NCBI RefSeq assembly: GCF_019331725.1
Contig: NZ_JAHBBF010000014.1
Span: 1 to 64,000, forward strand
Source of the DNA: Bifidobacterium saguinibicoloris
Lineage (GTDB): Bacteria; Actinomycetota; Actinomycetes; Actinomycetales; Bifidobacteriaceae
Direction: 5' to 3'
DNA: 64,000 nucleotides
Below are positions 2,516-39,574 of the stretch, one piece after another. Every line of letters begins with the position of its first letter. Position 1 is the stretch's first letter. The notes under the pieces are model-generated. The model was not told the DNA's origin. It worked only from the letters and a program-made list of their open reading frames with translations, and did not search any database. The translations under genes were made by a program, and so were the position numbers.

Positions 2516-5070
2516 GGGCGTTGCCTCCCTGCATTGGCCGCGTGCGTCCGTCCGCCGCCCTGATGCTTGGAGGTGCGGGATGCGGCGGAACCCTTTCCGG
2601 TATTCAATATATGACGTTTTGCCGGCTTCCGCCGTAATTCGCCGAATAATCCCCTGAGACTCAGCCTGGTGCGCCAGCGTCGCAGACGCGGCAGGGAGGC
2701 AAGCATGGCCTTGCGCATGGCGTCCACGTCACGCCAGTACGCGGCCGCCTGTCCGCTGGTGATGTCCTGACCGGAGAACGCGGCGTAGTCCGCGTCGTTC
2801 GAGAGCGTGCGGAACGATGCCGCATCCAGATGCAGCTGGTCCGCCATCGCGCGCGCCTGGTCGCGTCGTGTGCCGTGCGCGTCCACGCCGCTCTGCTTCG
2901 CCAATGCGGCGAGCGCTCCCCATCCGGCCACCACGCGGGTGCGTGCCGGGCCTCGTCCGCGCGCCCGCGCCAGCAGCACGGCCTTGGTGAGCAATATCGA
3001 TGCGGCGGCGAGCAGCAGGATCCACAGGGGGCTGCCCCATATGGCGACGCGGGCGGCGATGCGTGCGAACCGGGCCCAGAACAGGTTCGTGCCCGTATCG
3101 TCCGCATCCTCGCCGGCCAGCGTGGAGTTGCCGTTCGCCTGTTGCTCGTCGCGCAGCGGATCGGACAGCGGTACCGGCGGCTGTCTCACCAGCGTCTGCG
3201 GGTTCGGCGGGGAGAGGTCCTGGTTCTCGTCCGGGACCTTCGTCTCCTTGGGAGTGGGATAGAACGCCACCCATCCGTATCCGTCGAGCTTGATCTCCAC
3301 CCAGGCCTCGATGTCGTTGCCGGTGAACTTCGTCACCGTGTGCGTGCCCTGCTTCTCGGTGCGCGACTGGGTGATCTCGCCGTCCTTGTTCTTGGGGATG
3401 AAGCCCATCACCACGCGGCTCGGCAGGCCGAGCTCGCGGGCCATCAGCGCCATGGCGGAGGCGTACTGTTCGGAATCGCCCACCATTTCGGTGCCGGCGA
3501 GCAGCTTGTCGACGCGGTAGTTGCCGTGCCCCGGCAGCGAGGGGTAGTCGCCTTCGAGACCGTGCGAGAACCAGCCGGTCTCCTTGAGCTTCTGCGCAAG
3601 GGCCCGGGCCGCTTCGCCGCCTTTGGATTGGCCGCCCGCAATAGCGGAGGCCAGTTTGCTCACCGAGTCGGGGACGTCCTCGGCCTCCGGCTGGTCCACG
3701 GATGCGGCGTCCGCGGCGTCGATCTGCTTGTCCGTGGGCGTGTTCGGAATCACGCCGCGCTCCGTGTAGGTCAGGCCTTTGACGGTTCCCTTGGGGTAGA
3801 TGGCGGAATCGGTGTCCGTGTTGTAGTAGAAGGACGATGCGTCCGTCTTCGATGTGAACGTCACCGACGTGGCGGCACCCGAGAGCGGCAGCCAGGTGTC
3901 GGCAAGCCCTTCGTCCACGGTGAACGTGGCGGTGAACCGTTCGCCCTGCTCGTCCTCAGCGATCGTCGTGCCCACTCTGCGGTAGTTCGACGAATCGGCC
4001 GCGGACCTCGAATCGGACAGGTTCCAGACGTTGCCGTCGAAGCGGTCCATCACGGCGAGTCTGACGGGGGTGCCGGCCGGAAGGTCCCGGGCGGTGAGCA
4101 CGGTGTCATCCTTATGGTCCTTCACGTAGGAGCGCAATCCGGATAGAGGGCTCGTATAGTCGTACGGGTTGAGCGGCGGCTCGTAATGGTCGCGCAGCAC
4201 CACGCGATGCTGGGGGACGGCGAGGCACGCGCCCACGGCGATCGCGCCGGCGAGGACAAGGATCACCAGCGAGCTCAGCCAGCGGCCGAGCTCAAGCAGC
4301 CTCCAACGGGCGGACAGCCAGACGACGAGCAGAATCGCGCTGGCCATGCCGGATATCGGACGCCACCAGCCGGAATCGGTTCCCAGCAGCGCCGCGGCCA
4401 CGTTCGCGGCGAACACGGGGATGGCGCCCACCATGGCCCAGACGGCGTCACGCATGACGGCGAACAGCCCCGTGAGGAACGCGGTCCACAGGCCGAGCGT
4501 CCATGCCGCCATCAGGGAGCCGTCGGCGGTGCCGGTGGGAGGCTCGATCGAAATCAGGTATTTGAACGAGCCGAACGTGCTCTGCCAGCCTTGCGCGAGC
4601 GTCGACAGTGACGGCAGTACATGGCCTATCGTCGTGTCGTTCAACGCGACCACCGGGCCGACGACGAACTGCGCGAGCGTGAGGAATACGATCTGCCACC
4701 ACAGGCGCATCGCCGGCCTGATTCCGGCCAAGGCGACCAGGCAGCCGACGATCGTGGCGGGTATCGCGATTGCGGCCCAACGGGCCCAATCCCCGTACAC
4801 GTCGATGAGGTTGGAGACGGCGAGCAGCGTCAGCGCCGCCGTCACCGCCAGGTTGCCGATATGCCTGCCCCACGGCTCGCGGCCGACGTTCAGCGGCGTG
4901 GCGAAGCCGCCGCGTGTCATCCAGATCACCGAATGCGTGGAATCCGCCCAGGATCCGGTGGCTGTGGCGGTGTTCGTCCCCGTGCCATCGGGGATGGGCG
5001 TCCCGGTCGGTGCGGACATGTCCGGCATCGAGGTGGAGGACCGGTCGAACGGCATGGTCGGGAACGTCAT
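2512..5070 (-). CDS. tgm: transglutaminase-like membrane protein with the catalytic triad replaced
   Basis: The product is 852 aa and follows the TgpA layout: an N-terminal cytoplasmic tail, a bundle of about seven membrane helices (roughly 65-290), an extracytoplasmic region with a transglutaminase-core fold (about 480-620), a Pro-rich linker, one more membrane helix (near 700) and a C-terminal cytoplasmic domain. The core is recognisable (GDSEQYASAMALMARELG, then AWVEI and GYGWVAFYPTP), but the three catalytic positions are changed. Ser533 replaces Cys, Glu588 replaces His (EAWVE for HAWVE) and Tyr604 replaces Asp (FYPTP for FDPTP). Cross-linking or protease activity is therefore unlikely, and a binding role is more plausible. 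The start at 5070 overlaps the DUF58 stop by 4 bases; a longer reading frame upstream lies inside that gene and has no typical protein character. This is the tgm gene of the described bifidobacterial cluster. Confidence 0.88.
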   Translation of the reverse strand: MTFPTMPFDRSSTSMPDMSAPTGTPIPDGTGTNTATATGSWADSTHSVIWMTRGGFATPLNVGREPWGRHIGNLAVTAALTLLAVSNLIDVYGDWARWAAIAIPATIVGCLVALAGIRPAMRLWWQIVFLTLAQFVVGPVVALNDTTIGHVLPSLSTLAQGWQSTFGSFKYLISIEPPTGTADGSLMAAWTLGLWTAFLTGLFAVMRDAVWAMVGAIPVFAANVAAALLGTDSGWWRPISGMASAILLVVWLSARWRLLELGRWLSSLVILVLAGAIAVGACLAVPQHRVVLRDHYEPPLNPYDYTSPLSGLRSYVKDHKDDTVLTARDLPAGTPVRLAVMDRFDGNVWNLSDSRSAADSSNYRRVGTTIAEDEQGERFTATFTVDEGLADTWLPLSGAATSVTFTSKTDASSFYYNTDTDSAIYPKGTVKGLTYTERGVIPNTPTDKQIDAADAASVDQPEAEDVPDSVSKLASAIAGGQSKGGEAARALAQKLKETGWFSHGLEGDYPSLPGHGNYRVDKLLAGTEMVGDSEQYASAMALMARELGLPSRVVMGFIPKNKDGEITQSRTEKQGTHTVTKFTGNDIEAWVEIKLDGYGWVAFYPTPKETKVPDENQDLSPPNPQTLVRQPPVPLSDPLRDEQQANGNSTLAGEDADDTGTNLFWARFARIAARVAIWGSPLWILLLAAASILLTKAVLLARARGRGPARTRVVAGWGALAALAKQSGVDAHGTRRDQARAMADQLHLDAASFRTLSNDADYAAFSGQDITSGQAAAYWRDVDAMRKAMLASLPRLRRWRTRLSLRGLFGELRRKPAKRHILNTGKGSAASRTSKHQGGGRTHAANAGRQRP

Positions 5071-13972: not shown

Positions 13973-14125
13973 GACCTTCTCCCGTCGTTTCCCGCCCGAT
14001 GAACGTGTGGATATATCTGTAATGTAACGCGCCGCTACGGCACCCGCCCCATGTCACCCGGTTTTACGGAACATGCGGCGTGTCGCCCGGAATGCCGCGG
14101 CTCCGTGCGGTGCTCCGCCGGTCCG

Positions 14126-16706: not shown

Positions 16707-16726
16707 TCCGGTAGATATCTACCGGA
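16707..16726. promoter_or_regulatory. 20-bp perfect palindrome over the -35 region of the adnAB-like operon
   Basis: TCCGGTAGATATCTACCGGA is a perfect dyad whose 18-bp core also occurs before xseA at 38249-38268. Its centre lies 39.5 bases before the ATG at 16756. Its right half occupies the place where a -35 element would sit for the TACGCT -10 at 16743-16748. A repressor or activator site for a DNA-processing regulon is inferred; the protein is unknown. Confidence 0.75.
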
Positions 16727-16742
16727 TGGTCGGCGGCGGTCC

Positions 16743-16748
16743 TACGCT
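16743..16748 (+). promoter_or_regulatory. -10 element (TACGCT) for leaderless adnA-like mRNA
   Basis: TACGCT fits the actinobacterial TAnnnT -10 consensus and ends exactly 7 nt before the ATG at 16756, the geometry of leaderless transcripts. GGAGG does occur between them but only 2 nt from the ATG, too close for normal ribosome binding. Confidence 0.5.
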
Positions 16749-16755
16749 GGAGGCT

Positions 16756-19700
16756 ATGACTGGCAATGAGAAAGCATACGAGGCGCTGGACGCGCTCCTG
16801 AACGGCCCTGCGGGGGATTCCCCGGCCGCGCAGCAGGACGTGCTGCTCGTCTCCGGGGCTCCCGGCACCGGCAAGACGGAGTACGCGTTCGAGGCCCTTG
16901 TGCGTGGCCTGAAGACGTACGGCGACGACAAGGCGGTGATGACCGTGTCGAACAGGGTCATCGCGGACGGACTGGCCGACCGGGTGATCCGCCGGATCGG
17001 AGCCTCCTCGCAGGTGCGTCCGGTCACCACGCTTTCGGCGCTCGCATACCGCGTGCTCGCCGCGGTCGCGTTCGATGCCGGGGCTCCCGCCCCCAAGCTG
17101 CTCAACGGCGCCGAGCAGGACGCGCTCCTTCGCAAGGTGCTCGCGACCCATCTCATGCACGCACGAACCGGCGACCTGTGCCCCACCTGTCTGCTGCTGC
17201 GCTTCTATTTCGCCGACGATGGATGGACGGCGTCGGTGGCGACGGACGACGGGGACGGCGCGGCGTCCGCCGGGGAGGGGGACGCGGATACCGTCTCCAT
17301 GCTCGAGCGCGGGATCTCCGCGGCGTTCGTCGGCCAGCTGCGTGACATGCTGGCGCGTATGGACGAGCTCGGCGTGGACCGCGAACGCGAATCCCTCGCC
17401 TTGGACGCCCTGCGGGAGACGATCGGCGCCGCGGACCGCGGACATGCCTGGCGGCGTGCGGAGCGTCTCGATGTCCAATGGCGGTTGACGTTCGCGCTGC
17501 GCCGGGAATACGAGCGGGCCATAGGCGACGACTATCGCGGCCAGTACCGTCTGGACGCCTCGCGGCTGCTGGTGGACGGTGCCGCCGCTCTGCGCGACGG
17601 CGCACGGTCCGCCACGTCGCCCGCGCTGCTGGTCGTCGACGATTTCCAGGACACCACGCTTGCGGGACTGCGCTTCCTAGAGGCCCTCCACCGCGCCGGG
17701 ACGAGGCTGCTGCTCGTCGGCAACCCCGATGAAGCCGTGCAGACCTTCCGCGGCTCCTATCCCGAATACGTCTTCGGACGCGCCGTGGACGGGGTGTTGA
17801 AGGCGAAACGCGCCGTCCTGTCCGGTCCGTCGCCGGAACCGGGGGTCCCGAGCTACCGCGATCTCGTCGTTTCGCGGGTGGCGTTGTCCATCCCGTCCCC
17901 GGAGAACGAGATGACGGCGTTGCCCGATCGTCCCGGCAAGCCCGCGCGGTGGGAGGGAAGTCTGCCCATCACGCCGGTCGGAACGAAGCCGGACGACACG
18001 TCGCTGCGGGCGGCGCTCTACCGCAGCCCCCGTGAGGAGCTCGACGACGTGGTGTGGAGGATCAAGAGGACGCACCTCGACTTCGGCGAGGCGTGGAACA
18101 CGATGGCGGTCATCGCCCACGACAACGCCACGGTGCGGATGTTCGGCGAACGGCTGCGACGGGATGGCGTGCCGGTGCGGTATTCGTCCGTCACCAGGCC
18201 GCTCAGGGATGAGCCGTTCGTGCAGGGACTGTTCTCCCTGATCGAGCTTGCGCGCCTGCGCCGTCAGGGGATCATGGGATGCCTGATGGCTCCGGAGGAG
18301 GCATCCCGCTACGTGAGGTCCCGCGTCGCCTCGTTGATGGCGTGCCCGCTGATCACCACCGGTGCGAAACCCGGGGAGGGTCGTCCCGCGCGGCTTGCGG
18401 CCGTCGAATCGGCGATGAATGCGTTGGTGTCGCTCGCCGACATCCTTCCGGACGACGCCCGGCATGGTTCCGGGGAACCCGCCGCCGAAGCGGATGACGA
18501 GATTCCAGGCGCCGCGGGTCTGAGCGGTCTGACCGGGGCGTGGCGTGAGATGGCACGGCGTTGGTACGATGCGCGCGAGGCGCGGTCGGACGCATCCGGC
18601 GAGACGGTCGACGACTCCCTGATCGGCGGCTCCGCGCCGCATGACGAGGCCATGGGGTTCTCGACGAACGCCCTCTACGTGATGCTCGCGTTCGACGACG
18701 CGCAGGCGCCCGCCTCGGACATCATGGACATGATCGCCCATGTCATGGGCAGGGACCCCCAGATTCGCGCATGGCGCAGGCTGTGGCATGCGGTCGGTGC
18801 GGTGGCTGCGGGTCTGGATGGGCTGGAGAGTCGTGAGCCGCAGTACGTCCTCTCGCTCGCATGGGATGCCATGGGCGTGGCTGGGGCGTGGCAGACCGCC
18901 GCATTGGCGAATACGTCCGAAGGGCGTGCCGCCAACGATCGCCTGGACGCGGCGATGCGTCTGTTCCAATACGCGGAAGGCGGCACCGCCGGCCATGACA
19001 TCGTCGCATTCGCCGAGCAGGTACGGTCCATGCAGATCGAAGCCGATTCGCTGGCCCATGTGGGGCCGGTCGAACAGGCCGTCACGCTCTCCACGCCGGC
19101 CGGCGCCGTGGGACGGCATTGGACGCACGTGTGGATGCCCGCGTTGCAGCAGGGCGTATGGCCCAACCTCGCCGAGAGAGGGACGCTCTTCGGCGGGGAC
19201 GACCTCGCCGACATCATGCTCCACGGGGAATATGCGGGCGGCGGCCTGGAGACGTCCCGCGGCATGGCCGACCCGCGGCTGACGGCCGTGCTGTCTTCGG
19301 AGAAGAAGGGGCTGCTCGTGGCGCTCACCCGGGCCATCGGCGCATCGGCCACGGTGACGGTCAGCGCCGTGCGCAACGACGACCTCACGCCTTCGGACTT
19401 CCTCTACGGGTATATGCCGGAACGGTTCGACCGCGGACAAGCTGACTACACCGGTGTGGGAAGCGCCGCGGGAGCCGCGTCCGACGCGGGATCCACGGGT
19501 GACGATGCGAAGGGCGACGAACGCGGACACGGGTATGACGGTCTGGACGCGGATCCGCGCGGTCTCGTCGCGGCCGCACGCATCACGCTTGCGCGCGACG
19601 CGTCCGATGTCGCCGGGGCCAAGGACGCGGCACGTGCGTTGGCGCTGCTCGCACGGCACGGCATCGAATCCGCCGAGCCAGAGAACTGGTCGTTCCCGAC

Positions 19701-21024
19701 GCGGAACCCAAGTGATTGGGGCGACTGCGATGACGTCGCGTCGGCGACACAAGAAAGCACCCCTTACGGGCGGAATGACGGGCGGGAAGCCGTTCCGGTC
19801 TCGTCCGGACAAGCCCACCCCGTGGCGACCTTGTCGCCATCGGCGGTGGACCGGATCTGGGATTGTCCGGTGTGCTGGATGCTGGAGAACCGCTTCGCCG
19901 GGCCACGCCCCGGCAGTGTGGCCGCCGGCTTCGGCACGCTGATCCACGCCGTGGCGCAGCAGGGCAGCGAGGAAGGCCTCGATATGCCCGGCTTCATGGC
20001 CGGCTCGGGGCGCGAGGAACGGACCGAAGCGGTCCTGTCGCGGCTGCGCGCAATCTACGAAGGTCTCAGGCCCGACCCGGACGCCGTGGGGGATCCCGCG
20101 GACCGGTATGCCATGATTCGCAAGGACGCCGACGCCGAGACGGCGCTCGCCGCCATAGCCGGATACTTCGTCTCCTCCAACGAGCCCGACTATCTTGGGC
20201 GCAACGGCGACAACTTCGACATCGGCACCCTGGAACGGGCCGACTGCGAAGAGGAGTTCACGGCCCGGATCACCCTCGCGCGGTTGCTGCCCGCATACAA
20301 CGGGCTGCCCGGCATGCATGCGGTCACCGCCCACGAACTGGGCGCGCTCATGGGAACGCTCATCGGCGGGTGGCCTGAAGGCATGAGCGATGACCTGACC
20401 GTCCGGCTGTCCGGCCGCATCGACCGCAAGGAGACGCGGACGGTGCGGGGCGGGACCCGGATACGTCTCATCGACTACAAGACCGGGCAGCCGCCCACCA
20501 TCAGGCAGGCCGCCAACGACCTGCAGCTCGTGTGCTACCAACTCGGACTCGCCTTCCCCGAACAAGGGGACGTGCGGCTCGAGGACGTCACGCCCGTGGC
20601 GCAGAGCGCGCTGTTCCACGTGGCCTGCAACGACACCCCCGCGGAAAGCTACGCGCCGGAAGGCGCTTATCAGCCGGCGTTGTTCACCGGCGGCACGTTG
20701 AACGCCGAGGCGTTCATGAAACGCTTCCACTATCCGTCGGCGGACAAGCTGCTCGATATGCCGCATCCGCATCCGGAGCGCAGACCGGAGGGCCTGCACG
20801 ACGTGTCGGATGAGGCATGGCGCGAATTCGCGTCCCTCGACGGCACACAGGCGCTCTGGGCATTGACCATGATCGCCCGCGTGTTCTACGCGGCCGCCGC
20901 CAGCCGGTCCGCGACCATCGTCGCGCATCCCACCGCACGGCACATCGGCCGATGCCGCATGAAGGACGTGTGCCCGGCATGCGCCGGCGCCGTGGACACC
21001 ATCTTCGAAACGAGGCTCGCATGA
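16756..21024 (+). CDS. AdnA-like helicase-nuclease subunit (UvrD-type motor plus PD-(D/E)XK nuclease)
   Basis: The product is 1422 aa. An N-terminal SF1 motor begins with Walker A GAPGTGKT (about 35-42). Motif II reads VVDDFQDT near 290, where the first acidic pair is DD instead of DE, and motif III is GNPDEAVQTFRGS. The C-terminal RecB-like nuclease has LIDYKTG (Asp1240, Lys1242). Cysteines at 1037, 1400, 1406 and 1409 (with 1040 nearby) match the iron-sulfur 'staple' that brackets nuclease domains of AddB/AdnA type. With its overlapping partner it should resect double-strand DNA ends for recombination, the job of AdnAB in mycobacteria. A Gly/Asp-rich insert near residues 900-920 is probably a flexible loop. 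The gene has a striking 20-bp palindrome and a probable leaderless promoter. Assignment to AdnA over AddB rests on its place as first gene and its imperfect motor. Confidence 0.82.
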   Translation: MTGNEKAYEALDALLNGPAGDSPAAQQDVLLVSGAPGTGKTEYAFEALVRGLKTYGDDKAVMTVSNRVIADGLADRVIRRIGASSQVRPVTTLSALAYRVLAAVAFDAGAPAPKLLNGAEQDALLRKVLATHLMHARTGDLCPTCLLLRFYFADDGWTASVATDDGDGAASAGEGDADTVSMLERGISAAFVGQLRDMLARMDELGVDRERESLALDALRETIGAADRGHAWRRAERLDVQWRLTFALRREYERAIGDDYRGQYRLDASRLLVDGAAALRDGARSATSPALLVVDDFQDTTLAGLRFLEALHRAGTRLLLVGNPDEAVQTFRGSYPEYVFGRAVDGVLKAKRAVLSGPSPEPGVPSYRDLVVSRVALSIPSPENEMTALPDRPGKPARWEGSLPITPVGTKPDDTSLRAALYRSPREELDDVVWRIKRTHLDFGEAWNTMAVIAHDNATVRMFGERLRRDGVPVRYSSVTRPLRDEPFVQGLFSLIELARLRRQGIMGCLMAPEEASRYVRSRVASLMACPLITTGAKPGEGRPARLAAVESAMNALVSLADILPDDARHGSGEPAAEADDEIPGAAGLSGLTGAWREMARRWYDAREARSDASGETVDDSLIGGSAPHDEAMGFSTNALYVMLAFDDAQAPASDIMDMIAHVMGRDPQIRAWRRLWHAVGAVAAGLDGLESREPQYVLSLAWDAMGVAGAWQTAALANTSEGRAANDRLDAAMRLFQYAEGGTAGHDIVAFAEQVRSMQIEADSLAHVGPVEQAVTLSTPAGAVGRHWTHVWMPALQQGVWPNLAERGTLFGGDDLADIMLHGEYAGGGLETSRGMADPRLTAVLSSEKKGLLVALTRAIGASATVTVSAVRNDDLTPSDFLYGYMPERFDRGQADYTGVGSAAGAASDAGSTGDDAKGDERGHGYDGLDADPRGLVAAARITLARDASDVAGAKDAARALALLARHGIESAEPENWSFPTRNPSDWGDCDDVASATQESTPYGRNDGREAVPVSSGQAHPVATLSPSAVDRIWDCPVCWMLENRFAGPRPGSVAAGFGTLIHAVAQQGSEEGLDMPGFMAGSGREERTEAVLSRLRAIYEGLRPDPDAVGDPADRYAMIRKDADAETALAAIAGYFVSSNEPDYLGRNGDNFDIGTLERADCEEEFTARITLARLLPAYNGLPGMHAVTAHELGALMGTLIGGWPEGMSDDLTVRLSGRIDRKETRTVRGGTRIRLIDYKTGQPPTIRQAANDLQLVCYQLGLAFPEQGDVRLEDVTPVAQSALFHVACNDTPAESYAPEGAYQPALFTGGTLNAEAFMKRFHYPSADKLLDMPHPHPERRPEGLHDVSDEAWREFASLDGTQALWALTMIARVFYAAAASRSATIVAHPTARHIGRCRMKDVCPACAGAVDTIFETRLA

Positions 21025-24000
21025 CCACGACATTCACCGACAGCCCGGAGCAGGCGGCCGTCATCGGCGCCCCGGTCCATGACGACGTGCTCGTCGTCGC
21101 CGGCGCCGGATCCGGCAAGACCTACACCATGACCCGGCGCATCATCGAACTCATCGGCCGGGGCACGGCCCCGGAACGCATTCTCGGTCTCACCTTCACC
21201 CGCAAGGCGGCCGGAGAGCTGCTCGACCGCGTCTCCACGGCCGTGCTCTCTTCGGGGAACGATGGAGAGGATAGGGCGGCGAATGCGGACAGGGCGTTCC
21301 TCAAGCCCACCATCGCGACGTACGACGCGTTCTTCCAGACCATCGTGCGCCAGTACGGCCTGCTCGTCGGCTTCGATCAGAACACGCAGCCGTTGAGCGA
21401 AGCCGGGGCGCTCCTGCTCGCCGGTGATGTCATCGGACGGCACGCCGATGAGCTGCGCGACGCCGACCTGGGCTCGTTCTCGGCACTGTCGAAGCAGGTG
21501 CTCGGACTGTCGAACGCCATCGGCAGCGCGATGATCGGCGACGGCGTCACCGACATGCGCCAGGCCATCGCGGCCGTACGGGCGTGGGACGACGCGTTCA
21601 TCGCCCGGGTGCGCGACGCCATCGGAGACGAGACCGTCCCGGAGGAGCGTCCGAAACCGCCCAAGCCGAAACGGACGAAGAAGGATACGGACGCCACATG
21701 GCAGGCCAAGGTCGAGCGGCAGCGTCGGATGCAGCATGACCTGTGCCTGTTCACCTGCGCCGGACTCGCCGGCACAGCGGAGCGTCGCAACCTGCTGTTG
21801 AGGCTCGTCTCCGAATACGCCGACGAGAAGCGGCGGCGCAACATGGCCGAATTCAGCGACTTCACCATCGCCGCCTACCAGCTGGTCACACGGTTCCCCT
21901 CCATCGGCGAACGCTACCGCGAACGGTTCAGTCACGTGCTGCTCGACGAATACCAGGACACCTCCACCACGCAGGCCACGCTGATCGCCACACTGTTCCA
22001 GGGCGGCGGTACGGCGGTGAGCGCCGTGGGGGACCCGTTCCAATCCATCTACGCGTGGCGTGGCGCCAGCCCCGGCGCATTCCGCATGTTCCAACGGGAC
22101 TTCCACATGCGGGCGGAGGAGCGGCCATATGCGCTGAGCGTCACCAGGCGCAACGCGAGACTCGTGCTCGAAGCGGCCAACGACCTCACCCTGCCGCTGC
22201 GGCAGGAGCCCAGGCGTCCCGGCAGCTCACTGATGCGCGAAGTCGACGTGCGGCCGCTCAGCACCCTCGACGACGCCCCCGAAGGCACCGTGGGCGCATT
22301 GGGATACGACACCCTCGGCCAGGAGATCGACGGCGTGGTCCGTTTCTGCGCCGCGGTCAGGAAGGAGACCGGACACGACGGCGAACCCAAGACCGCCGCG
22401 GTGCTGTTCCGATCCAAGAAGGCCATGCCCCTCTACCAGCAGGCGTTGGAGCAGGCCGGTCTCACCACAGCCGTCGTCGGCTACTCCGCCATGCTCGAAC
22501 GCCCCGAGGTCAGGGATCTGCTCGCCCTGCTGCGCGTGGTCTCGGACCACACCGACACGAACAGCCTGATGCGTCTGCTCGCCACACCGCGGTTCGGACT
22601 CGACGCGCAGGCGCTCTCGACGCTCGCATCGCTCGCCGACGCCGACAACACCGAAAGCCGTTACCGTGCGCTCGCCGTCGCCGGCGTGGTCCCCGCCGAT
22701 GCGCCGCGGTCCCAGTGGGCTTCGCTGGTGCGCGAACACCGGTCCGAAGTGGCCAACGCCGTGTTCCTGCCCGACCTGCTCATGAAGGACGACCTCGGGG
22801 ACGAACTGGAACGCGAAGGACATCTGGACGGGTACGCCAGACATGCGGTCCTGCGCTGCTCGCGCATGCTGCGCCGTGTGGACGACATGGTCGGAGGGCC
22901 GCTGCAGGACGTGGTGCGGGCCGCGGCGGAAGCCCTCGATCTGGACATCGACACCGTGGTGGCCCAGGCACTCCATTCGGACGATGGAACCGTCAACCCC
23001 ACCCTCGCGCGCATTCCCATCGGGGCCGTGACCGATCTGGTGGACGCCTACACCGCCGAGATCGCGGCCGACGCCACGCCCACGCTGCGTGGATTCATGG
23101 CATGGGTGGACGCGCTGGGCTCTATCGAGGACGAGGCGGCCGCATTGGGGGCCGACCGGAAGGCCGACGTGGAACTCATGACCGTCCATCAGTCCAAGGG
23201 CCTCGAGTGGGACGCCGTCGCCGTCGTGGGACTGGAGAAAGGCGTGTTCCCCAGCAGTCAGGGCGACAATCTCTCCGTGGAGGAGGACGATGCGCACCCC
23301 GGCGGCCTCGAGCATGGCATCTGGACGGCCCCCGAATATCGGGAGAGCGCTAGGACATGGCTCGACGACCCCACCGCCGTACCAGTGCCGATCCGCGTCG
23401 ATGCCGGCATCCTCCCCAGATTCCCGCACGACGCCCCCGCCGATTCGGACCCCATCGCCTCGCTGGACGCGTTGGACGGTGTGGAGCGCATCGACGACGA
23501 GGTGTACGGCTCGCTGCGGAACGACGGAGACGGCGCGGAAGGTGCCGACCCGGACTCCCGGTATCTGACCCAGGAGGAGGAATACGGCAGGCGGCTGCAC
23601 GCCGACGAACGGCGGCTCATGTACGTGGCGCTGACCAGAGCCAGGACGGACGTGCTGCTCACCTATGCGCGCACATCCTCGCCCCTGCGCGATCCCTCCT
23701 TGATTGAGGGGAAACCCAGGTCAGCGAAGCCGTCCAACTTCTGGCTTGAAGTGCACGACGCGCTGCATTCCCGCGCCGACGCGGTCACCATAGGAAAGGA
23801 CGGCTCCGGTGCGGACGGCGCGGATGACATGGACGGTGCGGATGGCGCCGCGGTGCCGTCCGGGAACGCCCCGACGGACGCTTCGACGGATGCCTCGACG
23901 GACGTCCGCACGCTGGCCGGCCGCGGCGTCCCCCTACCGGCCGGTATGTTCGCCGGCGAGGCGGCGAAGGCCCGTGTACGTGTGCTGGTGACGGACGCGT

Positions 24001-24995
24001 GGAACGGGCCGTATGACATCGAACGGGATGCGGACGGCCTGCCATGGCCCGTCGGGCTGACGCCGGCGCTCGCCGAACGTCTGCGGCGGGCGGCCGAGAC
24101 CGTACAGGCGGTCCGGGAGACCGCCGCCGATGCGGAAGGACCGGTGGGGCCCCTGCTCGAACGGGCGCGGATGCTGGTCGCGGACGATGACCTCATGAGC
24201 GGCTCGCTGTCCGGCGAGACCCTCGACGAAGCCGTCAGGACCAAGGCGCAGCGCATCCTCGCCGGATCGCGCCAAAGCGTCACCGGTCTGCAGGTGCGCG
24301 CCGGAACCTTGGGCGAGCGCGAGGAACGCCGGTATTGGAGGAGCATCGTACGGCCCATCCCGTCCGTCGCCTCGCCGTCCGCCTCGGCGGGAACCCGGTT
24401 CCACGCGTGGGCGCAACGGTTCATCGACGCGGCCATCCCCGGCAAGGACCTGCTCGGAACCGACGCCGTGCCCGGGGTGGATGCTGGAACGTTCCCCAAT
24501 CCGACACGCCGGACGATGCTCGCCGGGCTCGGCGCTGACGAACCGGACGATGCCGTCGAACGGCGGCTGCTCTCCTGGGAGCGTCGCCTCGCCGCATCCC
24601 CATGGGCGCGGCGCATCCCCGCATGGGCCGAACGGCAGATCGTCGTCTCGCTGCCCCAACTGGACGGTATCATCGCCAACGGCAAGCTCGACGCCGTCTT
24701 CCACGGTGGCCTCGACCCGGAGGACGATTCGAAACGGTACACCGTCATCGACTGGAAGACCGGGCGTCGGCCGCGTACCGCCAAGGAACGTGCGGAGAGA
24801 CTCGCGCAGCTCGACCTCTACCGTCTCCTGCTCGCCGCGGTGGAGGGCCTGCCGCTGGACAGCATCGACGCGGCTCTCTACTATGTGAGTGAGCCCGACG
24901 AGCGGAACCGAGAACTGCGCGCCGAGGCGAAAACAGAACAGGACATCATTGCCGAGTTGAGCTCCGGAGTTCCCGAGCAATCCGACGACGATTAG
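21021..24995 (+). CDS. AdnB-like UvrD/Rep helicase with C-terminal RecB nuclease domain
   Basis: The product is 1324 aa. The complete SF1A helicase set is visible: Walker A AGAGSGKT (about 30-37), motif Ia LTFTRKAA, motif II LLDEYQDT (near 307), motif III GDPFQSIYAWRG, motif V TVHQSKGLEWD and motif VI YVALTRARTD. The C-terminal nuclease has VIDWKTG (Asp1244, Lys1246) followed by the LAQLDLYRLLL helix typical of RecB nucleases. This should be the main motor of the heterodimer. The ATG overlaps the upstream stop by 4 bases, so the subunits are translated together. A low-complexity Asp/Gly/Ala/Ser stretch (near 930-960) with repeated DASTD looks like a linker before the nuclease half. The 181 bases after the gene hold only a 7-bp hairpin (25123-25146). 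Confidence 0.88.
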   Translation: MTTTFTDSPEQAAVIGAPVHDDVLVVAGAGSGKTYTMTRRIIELIGRGTAPERILGLTFTRKAAGELLDRVSTAVLSSGNDGEDRAANADRAFLKPTIATYDAFFQTIVRQYGLLVGFDQNTQPLSEAGALLLAGDVIGRHADELRDADLGSFSALSKQVLGLSNAIGSAMIGDGVTDMRQAIAAVRAWDDAFIARVRDAIGDETVPEERPKPPKPKRTKKDTDATWQAKVERQRRMQHDLCLFTCAGLAGTAERRNLLLRLVSEYADEKRRRNMAEFSDFTIAAYQLVTRFPSIGERYRERFSHVLLDEYQDTSTTQATLIATLFQGGGTAVSAVGDPFQSIYAWRGASPGAFRMFQRDFHMRAEERPYALSVTRRNARLVLEAANDLTLPLRQEPRRPGSSLMREVDVRPLSTLDDAPEGTVGALGYDTLGQEIDGVVRFCAAVRKETGHDGEPKTAAVLFRSKKAMPLYQQALEQAGLTTAVVGYSAMLERPEVRDLLALLRVVSDHTDTNSLMRLLATPRFGLDAQALSTLASLADADNTESRYRALAVAGVVPADAPRSQWASLVREHRSEVANAVFLPDLLMKDDLGDELEREGHLDGYARHAVLRCSRMLRRVDDMVGGPLQDVVRAAAEALDLDIDTVVAQALHSDDGTVNPTLARIPIGAVTDLVDAYTAEIAADATPTLRGFMAWVDALGSIEDEAAALGADRKADVELMTVHQSKGLEWDAVAVVGLEKGVFPSSQGDNLSVEEDDAHPGGLEHGIWTAPEYRESARTWLDDPTAVPVPIRVDAGILPRFPHDAPADSDPIASLDALDGVERIDDEVYGSLRNDGDGAEGADPDSRYLTQEEEYGRRLHADERRLMYVALTRARTDVLLTYARTSSPLRDPSLIEGKPRSAKPSNFWLEVHDALHSRADAVTIGKDGSGADGADDMDGADGAAVPSGNAPTDASTDASTDVRTLAGRGVPLPAGMFAGEAAKARVRVLVTDAWNGPYDIERDADGLPWPVGLTPALAERLRRAAETVQAVRETAADAEGPVGPLLERARMLVADDDLMSGSLSGETLDEAVRTKAQRILAGSRQSVTGLQVRAGTLGEREERRYWRSIVRPIPSVASPSASAGTRFHAWAQRFIDAAIPGKDLLGTDAVPGVDAGTFPNPTRRTMLAGLGADEPDDAVERRLLSWERRLAASPWARRIPAWAERQIVVSLPQLDGIIANGKLDAVFHGGLDPEDDSKRYTVIDWKTGRRPRTAKERAERLAQLDLYRLLLAAVEGLPLDSIDAALYYVSEPDERNRELRAEAKTEQDIIAELSSGVPEQSDDD

Positions 24996-38248: not shown

Positions 38249-38268
38249 ACCGGTAGATATCTACCGGT
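38249..38268. promoter_or_regulatory. 20-bp perfect palindrome over the -35 region of xseA
   Basis: ACCGGTAGATATCTACCGGT is a perfect dyad sharing its 18-bp core with the site at 16707-16726. Its centre is 38.5 bases before the ATG at 38297, and it covers the expected -35 position for the TATAGT at 38284-38289. The near-identical distance at both loci supports a real operator. Confidence 0.75.
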
Positions 38269-38283: not shown

Positions 38284-38289
38284 TATAGT
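38284..38289 (+). promoter_or_regulatory. -10 element (TATAGT) for leaderless xseA mRNA
   Basis: TATAGT ends 7 nt before ATG 38297, so transcription would begin at or beside the start codon. The alternative is a GTG at 38288 served by GGAGG 10 nt upstream, in which case TATAGT would fall across the start. Confidence 0.5.
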
Positions 38290-38296
38290 GGTGCGC

Positions 38297-39574
38297 ATGA
38301 GTTACGAAATGAACGCCACGGCGGGCGTCGCCGGCGGCCTCGACCGGCCGAGGCCGATGGACCAGCTGCCCAGGCTGGCCGCCGAGACCACGGCGGAGAA
38401 CCCATGGCCGGTGAGCGTGCTGAGCCAGAAGTTCCACAATGCGGTGGTGAAATGGCCGGCCGCGTGGATCTGCGGCCAGATCACGGAGATCAACACGCGG
38501 CGTCCGGGGTCCGCGTACCTTACGGTGCGCGACGATTTCGAGGACGTGGCCATCTCCGTCTCCGGATGGCGTACGTTCGCCGCCGCCGCCGCGCAGTTCC
38601 GGCAGGGCGACCGCGTGGTCGTCCACGGGCGTGCCGACATCTGGGTCAAGCAGACGCGTCTGAGCTTCATCGGCGACGACATCCGCAAGATCGGCGCCGG
38701 AGGGCTCAAGGAACAGATCGACGAGCTGCGCAAACGGCTCAAGGGCGAGGGGTTGTTCGACGCGGACCGGAAGGTGCCGCTGCCCGAATTCCCCAAGTGC
38801 ATCGGCCTCATCTGCGCGCCCCAGGCGCGCGCCGAGGGCGACGTGGTCACCAACGTGAACCTCCGATGGCCCGCCGTGCGGTTCAAGATCGTGCACGCGC
38901 ATGTGCAGGGCGCGCAATGCCCGCCGGATATCATCGCGGCGATCCGCAAGCTCGACGAGGATCCGGACGTGGACGTGATCATCGTGGCCCGTGGAGGCGG
39001 CGCGTTCGAGGATCTGGTCGGATTCTCGGACGAGGGCGTCGTGCGCGCCGCCGCGGCCTGCGTCACGCCGATCGTCTCCGCCGTGGGGCATGAGGACGAT
39101 TGGACGCTCATCGACCTCGCCGTCGACCTGAGGGCCTCCACGCCCACCGACGCCGCCAAGAAAGTGGTGCCGGACGTGCGCGAGCAATGGCAGCTGGTGG
39201 ACAACGCCCTGCAGCGCATGCGCATGCGCATCTCCTCGCGCGTGGACAACGAGATCCGTCTCGTCGAGGGCTATGCGAACCGCCCGAGCCTGACGAGGCC
39301 GTTGACCATGCTGGAGCCGCACCAGCGGTTCCTCGACGATGCGCGGAACCGTCTCGACATCGGCCTGCGGCGCATCGTGGACGACGCCTCGCTCACCATC
39401 GAGAAGGCGCATGCCTCGCTCACCGCGTTGAGCCCCCAATCCACGCTGAACCGCGGATACGCCGTCGTCCAGGACGAGCAGGGGCACGTGATGGACGACG
39501 CCTCGCTGGTCCGGACCGGTGAAGAACTCACCCTGACCCTGAGGAAGGGCGTCGTCACCGCGACCGCGGACTGA
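38297..39574 (+). CDS. xseA: exodeoxyribonuclease VII large subunit
   Basis: The product is 425 aa, a normal length. An OB-fold domain comes first (about 35-125, with WICGQITEINTRRPGSAYLT). The catalytic domain carries the family hallmarks: LICAPQARAEGDV, VIIVARGGGAFEDLVGFSDE, PIVSAVGHEDDWTLIDLAVD and LRASTPTDAAK. The coiled-coil C-terminus ends with STLNRGYAVVQDEQGHV. With XseB it degrades single-stranded DNA into oligonucleotides during repair. The ATG at 38297 is preferred over GTG 38288 because of the leaderless geometry. xseB follows 104 bases later, with a hairpin in between. Confidence 0.95.
   Translation: MSYEMNATAGVAGGLDRPRPMDQLPRLAAETTAENPWPVSVLSQKFHNAVVKWPAAWICGQITEINTRRPGSAYLTVRDDFEDVAISVSGWRTFAAAAAQFRQGDRVVVHGRADIWVKQTRLSFIGDDIRKIGAGGLKEQIDELRKRLKGEGLFDADRKVPLPEFPKCIGLICAPQARAEGDVVTNVNLRWPAVRFKIVHAHVQGAQCPPDIIAAIRKLDEDPDVDVIIVARGGGAFEDLVGFSDEGVVRAAAACVTPIVSAVGHEDDWTLIDLAVDLRASTPTDAAKKVVPDVREQWQLVDNALQRMRMRISSRVDNEIRLVEGYANRPSLTRPLTMLEPHQRFLDDARNRLDIGLRRIVDDASLTIEKAHASLTALSPQSTLNRGYAVVQDEQGHVMDDASLVRTGEELTLTLRKGVVTATAD

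Follow-up and report, generated by a model that had tools for sequence, protein, structure and literature searches.

Why should two nuclease operons of one bacterium carry the same inverted repeat just upstream of their start codons? The question is raised by a stretch of 64,000 nucleotides of the Bifidobacterium saguinibicoloris genome (contig NZ_JAHBBF010000014.1, positions 1 to 64,000; hereafter the window), in which perfect 20-bp palindromes precede the adnAB-like genes (TCCGGTAGATATCTACCGGA) and xseA (ACCGGTAGATATCTACCGGT). The palindrome is read here as the site of WYL-A, a predicted regulator of the WYL family which, as a homodimer over the -35 region, would recruit RNA polymerase to promoters of repair genes. 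The probability of this reading is put at about 0.78. That the cis-element and a regulon marked by it are real is, judging from the genomes compared, close to certain.

Re-reading of the coordinates (Table 1) confirmed what a first-pass annotation of the window had described at adnAB, a perfect palindrome of 20 bp and a TACGCT hexamer 7 nt ahead of the ATG. The gaps between palindrome and -10 element given there, 16 (adnAB) and 15 nt (xseA), are correct for the 20-mers, and correspond to 17 and 16 nt when measured from the shared 18-mers. At up to 3 mismatches the 14-bp core GGTAGATATCTACC has just two places in the window, both of them exact copies; among 100 shuffled versions of the sequence, 8 also reach two such matches.

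Palindromes at repair promoters

The whole genome of B. saguinibicoloris (2.68 Mb in 34 contigs) was scanned, the reversed pattern serving as control. The 18-mer CCGGTANATATNTACCGG marks 11 places at up to 1 mismatch and 18 at up to 3 mismatches, against 0 and 2 for the control, while the bare 14-mer is hardly enriched (34 matches against 26 at up to 3 mismatches). Counts of the strict 18-mer are far beyond chance, as had been supposed from the 18-bp identity at the two nuclease operons. Wide occurrence unrelated to promoters or repair genes, which would speak against a regulon, was looked for, and the motif is not randomly spread. Six of the 11 strict sites lie upstream of adnAB, xseA, priA (NF011451, 1129 bits, slightly below the cut-off of 1147), radA (TIGR00416), sbcD-sbcC (TIGR00619 above cut-off, TIGR00618 below) and rmuC (PF02646). 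The other five face mscS-like, SWIM zinc-finger, YwiC-like and RhuM-Fic genes, and, next to ileS, a decayed locus. One more place, the twelfth, differs from the pattern at 2 positions and is upstream of a further gene, without family assignment. The undescribed regulon for DNA-end processing that had been proposed thus holds as far as repair genes are concerned, but must be drawn wider.

Promoters were read at strict sites of 15 genomes. In 35 of 45 sites the 18-mer is followed, after 16 or 17 nt, by a TAnnnT hexamer (22 and 15 instances, 2 sites featuring it on both strands; locus L051, with 2 mismatches, and duplicates were dropped from the count), a spacing shared by 0.85% of random positions. 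The palindrome hence takes the -35 place. The 45 sites were drawn from 54; eight of the remaining nine, read later, all have TAnnnT at 16–17 nt, and one (in G102) was left out. If the -10 element is taken as positions -12 to -7, the midpoint of the palindrome falls close to -38, so that the palindrome covers the -35 region. Matches to a -35 hexamer are poor, the best of three spacers providing 2, 3 and 4 of 6 bases in 14, 18 and 5 of the 37 promoters, respectively. In B. saguinibicoloris the hexamer is at 16–17 nt in 9 of the 11 sites, and in six of these nine the predicted ATG follows the -10 element by 6–7 nt; judging from the predicted starts, these six promoters look leaderless. The label of operator, given to the palindrome by the first-pass annotation, should probably read activator site at -35. 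The dnaB palindromes of two species (G017, L062 5855; G093, L134 1501) have TAnnnT at a distance of 16 nt on either strand, as though a single dimer were shared by a pair of divergent promoters.

A scan of a named genome collection with CCGGTASATATSTACCGG returned 36 stretches, 20 of them in Bifidobacterium (platyrrhinorum 8, stellenboschense 5, leontopitheci 5, aesculapii 1, pullorum 1) and 16 as singles in scattered taxa, apparently by chance. Strict sites were found in none of 22 genomes scanned from other families. A site, strict or relaxed, precedes adnA in B. saguinibicoloris, aesculapii, platyrrhinorum, stellenboschense, leontopitheci and in G096, and radA in the first four of these species and in G066; priA, xseA, sbcD and the mscS-like gene have orthologous sites in at least two species. 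Further targets in relatives are dnaG, dnaB, dnaE, a DnaA/Hda-like ATPase, cas3 (stellenboschense), a DNA methyltransferase-like and a GmrSD-like gene. The sites at cas3, GmrSD-like and RhuM/Fic genes, each in a single species, suggest that phage defence may be hooked to the same switch.

The ileS-side site is kept at the same spot in B. saguinibicoloris (L046 4841), B. aesculapii (L058 5221) and B. stellenboschense (L097 2186). The gene faced varies, being cas3 in stellenboschense, another gene in aesculapii, and in B. saguinibicoloris a short open reading frame followed by a RelB/YafQ-type pair. The decayed stretch downstream of the B. saguinibicoloris site hosts two near-identical short elements (CCGGAGTCAT..TCCGGAGACTTCATTGAG-like; L046, about 4550–4680).

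WYL-A and WYL-B as candidate regulators

In a survey of WYL proteins one group, WYL-A, was found to adjoin palindromes in several genomes. The B. saguinibicoloris member, a protein of 392 aa with one WYL domain, is encoded outside the window (contig C31, 73234–74412). WYL-A or related WYL genes reside in 32 of 112 genomes of the genus. Sorting by identity assigned 22 genomes to clade A (at least 40%) and 10 to B only (at most 39%; G076, at 40%, is B by the tree). A tree of 32 rows places 21 of them in clade A and the other 11 in clade B with its relatives, each group at 100/100; WYL-A of G070 was left out because the gene is broken. B. saguinibicoloris carries in addition a divergent B-side paralogue on contig C17 (34% identity). 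This WYL gene has a divergently transcribed neighbour (L129 1111–2106 and 2464–3243 for the pair), is found also in B. leontopitheci (L126), and may form with the neighbour a defence pair.

Strict sites mark 15 of the 112 genomes, all among the 32 with WYL-A/B genes and none among the 80 without (Fisher 3.6e-10); clade A is present in 14 of the 15, the exception being G017 (B only). Relaxed sites GGTANAWWWNTACC, counted on the forward strand, number at least 3 in 17 of the 32 genomes and in none of the 80, and total 107 in the 22 A genomes, 37 in the 10 B-only genomes and 12 in the 80 others; on the reverse strand one WYL-less genome (G009, 4 sites) also reaches 3. Conservation before adnA, on which the first-pass annotation had made its proposal depend, follows the same lines: among the genomes sampled, the palindrome is kept in 12 of 14 with WYL-A, in neither of the 2 that have WYL-B only, and in none of the 14 lacking a WYL homologue (7 of 8 outer bases were demanded, for which the null rate is 2.9%; of the 12 positives, 5 have 7 of the 8).

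WYL-A genes are themselves often close to palindromes. In 9 of 22 genomes one lies upstream of the gene within about 300 nt (p<0.01, 500 base shuffles); upstream of WYL-B none was found at p<0.01 in 7 tested loci, G103 reaching p 0.026. The test was anchored on match coordinates, with G093 and G105 at p 0.1. An earlier version, in which a position matrix was anchored on the HTH, had given 9 of 16 for WYL-A (G093 and G105 among the 9, G086 and G108 outside the 16) and 0 of 5 for WYL-B, the HTH regular expression having missed 6 of 22 WYL-A and 2 of 7 WYL-B loci. A strict site is less than 4 kb from the WYL-A gene in G000, G020, G036, G066, G070 and G090. Genomes with large regulons, B. saguinibicoloris included, have no palindrome before WYL-A, which counts against simple autoregulation.

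The two clades are accompanied by different operators. Among the matches listed, G/C occupies both outer N positions in 26 of 28 sites of eight clade-A-only genomes, and in none of 18 sites of the B-only genomes G017 and G032, where 16 of 18 are A..T; in B. saguinibicoloris 9 of 11 sites are of the G/C type. WYL-B is accompanied by the variant GGTAAAATTTTACC, found upstream of the same set of repair genes. In G032 the A..T type stands before radA, priA, rmuC, xseA, dnaG and dnaB, and, to judge from a UvrD match, probably adnA; in G017 and G093 it precedes genes sharing N-termini with radA, priA and dnaG (both genomes) and rmuC (G093). At radA, 12 of 12 A..T operators are in WYL-B genomes, and the other five, of G/C type or mixed (G000, G030, G066, G098, G124), are in genomes without WYL-B proper. 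WYL-A is the likely binder of the palindrome. At three loci (L225 1539, L231 1519, L234 1589) one promoter, ahead of a small gene, contains both an operator of the WYL-B type and a box like that of LexA (GAACAAACGTTC or similar), suggesting double control.

WYL-A has the domain order HTH, WYL, WCX, with Pfam matches above cut-off for WYL and WCX and below it for HTH_11. The AlphaFold model (predicted local distance difference test score, pLDDT, 76; predicted template modelling score, pTM, 0.53) retrieved through Foldseek DriD first (8tp8, E 7e-13, about 17–18% sequence identity), then PafBC, BrxR and CapW, and all 30 matches at E of at most 0.001 are WYL factors. No WYL chain came up when PDB chains were searched with WYL-A by sequence and by profile; the fold search did find such chains. 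Uncertainty in the domain arrangement keeps global TM-scores low, and a second aligner was less telling. Two conserved arginines for the single-stranded DNA (ssDNA) ligand are described in the WYL domain of PafBC (PMC11804915). In an alignment ignoring row L110, which is out of register, one is kept, and the other is His in WYL-A and Val in WYL-B.

By analogy with DriD and PafBC, the signal would be a nucleic acid, such as ssDNA made at breaks. The predicted homodimer, itself proposed on the model of related factors, would then sit over the -35 position and bring in RNA polymerase where the -10 box is at fixed distance and a good -35 box is lacking. The regulon would run beside LexA/SOS and a probable fused PafBC, the genes for both of which reside in the same genome.

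Alternatives, LexA and PafBC

BrxR and CapW, found among the fold matches of WYL-A, are WYL regulators of the repressor type, released on damage. The same factor might likewise act on the same palindrome by blocking the -35 region until damage occurs. A site over -35 suits a repressor too, and the one upstream of the WYL-A gene of G090 lacks the 16–17 nt spacing. A repressor, however, requires neither the near-invariant spacing nor the poor -35 hexamers seen elsewhere, and the two dnaB sites, with a -10 element at gap 16 on either strand, also argue against it. Repression is thus considered unlikely, and activation probable. It is more unlikely still that a different regulator of similar phyletic pattern binds the palindrome: the search covered WYL families only and the correlations ignore ancestry, which leaves some room for such a protein, but it would then be coincidence both that 9 of 22 genomes have palindromes directly before WYL-A and that the operator centre agrees with the clade.

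Two further readings have next to no probability. The repair genes downstream would be in keeping with a LexA/SOS operator of altered sequence. LexA of B. saguinibicoloris (TIGR00498, 218 bits), however, is accompanied by ordinary GAAC-N4-GTTC boxes upstream of both lexA and recA, and these two loci (3.7–4 kb each) are free of exact GGTA-N6-TACC; LexA and its boxes being separate and the palindrome lacking GAAC-N4-GTTC, this reading was rejected. A bidirectional transcription terminator, or some other RNA hairpin, would agree with the arrangement AAAAAA-palindrome-TTTTTT, or similar, at several B. leontopitheci sites. In the 11 B. saguinibicoloris sites, however, the central ATAT, which would be the loop, is invariant, and the N and N' on either side of it are complementary in only 5; an RNA stem would call for the opposite pattern. 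Recognition of double-stranded DNA is therefore favoured, the fixed distance to -10 points to a promoter, and the hairpin was rejected as well.

A protein of 637 aa with WYL and WCX matches, adjoining a DEAD-box helicase and separate from WYL-A, is presumably the fused PafBC of B. saguinibicoloris, a label given on its length and gene neighbourhood. PafBC as binder of the palindrome was rejected, since its motif differs and WYL matches in frames of about 640 aa, close to this one in length, are found in several genomes without strict sites. Promoters of radA were read in 50 genomes, comprising all 32 with WYL-A/B genes and 18 of the 80 others; the palindrome is present in 17 of 32 and 0 of 18. 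They were searched for TTGTC-N12-TAnnnT, which is the RecA-NDp consensus tTGTCRgtg-N8-TAnnnT, as given in PMC5656591, shortened to its first five bases (null rate 0.5% exact, 1.7% at up to 1 mismatch). The pattern is carried by 27 of the 33 radA promoters without palindrome (19 exact, 8 with one mismatch), against 2 of the 17 with it, both at one mismatch and none exact. One type of damage promoter therefore seems to have been swapped for another. A general replacement of PafBC by the palindrome was rejected, as it holds at radA only: adnA promoters of the 14 sampled WYL-less genomes feature neither the palindrome nor a RecA-NDp-type motif. The PafBC branch seems to be retained for some genes, because in B. 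saguinibicoloris one of two exact matches to TTGTCRGNG-N8-TAnnnT (0 in the control) is before a yebC-ruvC-like operon (L317 1501, C1:52329). The dissimilarity of the palindrome to both the LexA box and the RecA-NDp promoter, noticed at first inspection, is in line with the separate LexA boxes and with palindromic radA promoters devoid of the exact RecA-NDp motif.

Related systems and features of the window

DriD of Caulobacter crescentus, as described in PMC12340889, is an HTH/WYL/WCX factor acting independently of SOS, known as an ssDNA-activated homodimer. It recognizes a pseudopalindrome, ATACGAC-N7-GTCGTAT, placed over -35 at one distance from -10, in promoters with poor -35 boxes before genes such as recJ and dnaG. 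The palindrome system shares with it the domain order, the position over a poor -35 region, SOS independence, and replication and repair targets, dnaG being a common target in relatives of B. saguinibicoloris. It differs in the operator CCGGTANATATNTACCGG, in the targets adnAB, xseA, priA, radA, sbcDC and rmuC, and in the leaderless appearance of 6 of 9 TAnnnT promoters; WYL-A, moreover, has low sequence identity to DriD in the fold match and lacks one of the two ssDNA arginines. PafBC of mycobacteria also belongs to the actinobacterial WYL family, AdnAB is reported as its target (PMC8151990, PMC8223512), and PafBC-type and palindromic promoters hold the same place at radA in different species. 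Unlike the palindrome, which lies about one helical turn further upstream, the PafBC motif is non-palindromic and set around -26, the factor being a heterodimer or a fusion (PMC5656591, PMC11804915). SiwR of Mycobacterium smegmatis resembles the WYL-A proposed here in being a homodimeric WYL activator with an imperfect 19-bp palindrome, responding to genotoxic stress; its palindrome, however, spans the region between -35 and -10, and the genes described are the adjacent DinB-like ones (PMC10693628). LexA/SOS is likewise a repair regulon under a palindrome, differs in the operator, and coexists with boxes of its own.

No description of the palindrome regulon was found in the literature searched. 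The balance of probability tilts slightly towards a new lineage of WYL homodimers having captured a damage regulon promoter by promoter within the genus: radA would be under PafBC (in most species sampled), WYL-B (GGTAAAATTTTACC) or WYL-A (GGTAGATATCTACC), the leaderless -10 element being kept, and some bifidobacteria would run LexA, PafBC and WYL-A/B in parallel. The genus would then display regulatory takeover in intermediate states. The palindrome regulon would be the third for DNA damage in Bifidobacterium, a genus of gut commensals, and would come with a named candidate for its regulator and an operator predicting targets base by base. It would also provide a natural series of species with the same repair promoter under PafBC, WYL-B or WYL-A; such a series is a rare opportunity for testing how a regulon passes between members of a family of ligand-sensing factors.

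Table 1. Palindromes, promoter elements and genes at the adnAB and xseA loci of the window
Feature	Position	Strand	Remarks
20-bp perfect palindrome TCCGGTAGATATCTACCGGA	16707-16726 (18-bp core 16708-16725)	.	-35 position of the adnAB promoter; proposed WYL-A site
-10 element TACGCT	16743-16748	+	17 nt past the 18-mer, 7 nt upstream of ATG 16756; leaderless
adnA-like gene	16756-21024	+	UvrD-type N-terminal part and PD-(D/E)XK nuclease (Pfam); best PDB matches 7sjr_A, 6ppj_A
adnB-like gene	20817-24995	+	UvrD helicase and PD-(D/E)XK nuclease (Pfam); best PDB match 6ppu_B
Second 20-bp perfect palindrome ACCGGTAGATATCTACCGGT	38249-38268 (18-bp core 38250-38267)	.	-35 position of the xseA promoter
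-10 element TATAGT	38284-38289	+	16 nt past the 18-mer, 7 nt upstream of ATG 38297
xseA, exodeoxyribonuclease VII large subunit	38297-39574	+	TIGR00237, 368 bits

The coordinates of the adnB-like gene are those of the longest open reading frame listed, the true start being probably near 21020. The PDB chains 7sjr_A and 6ppj_A are taken by us to be mycobacterial AdnA, and 6ppu_B to be AdnB. In the window, no enrichment beside palindromes is shown for CGACACGCC or GCGACACGCC (5 and 3 copies); CGACACGCC, located at 14077, 16671, 24502, 38216 and 46390, adjoins many palindromes in several species.
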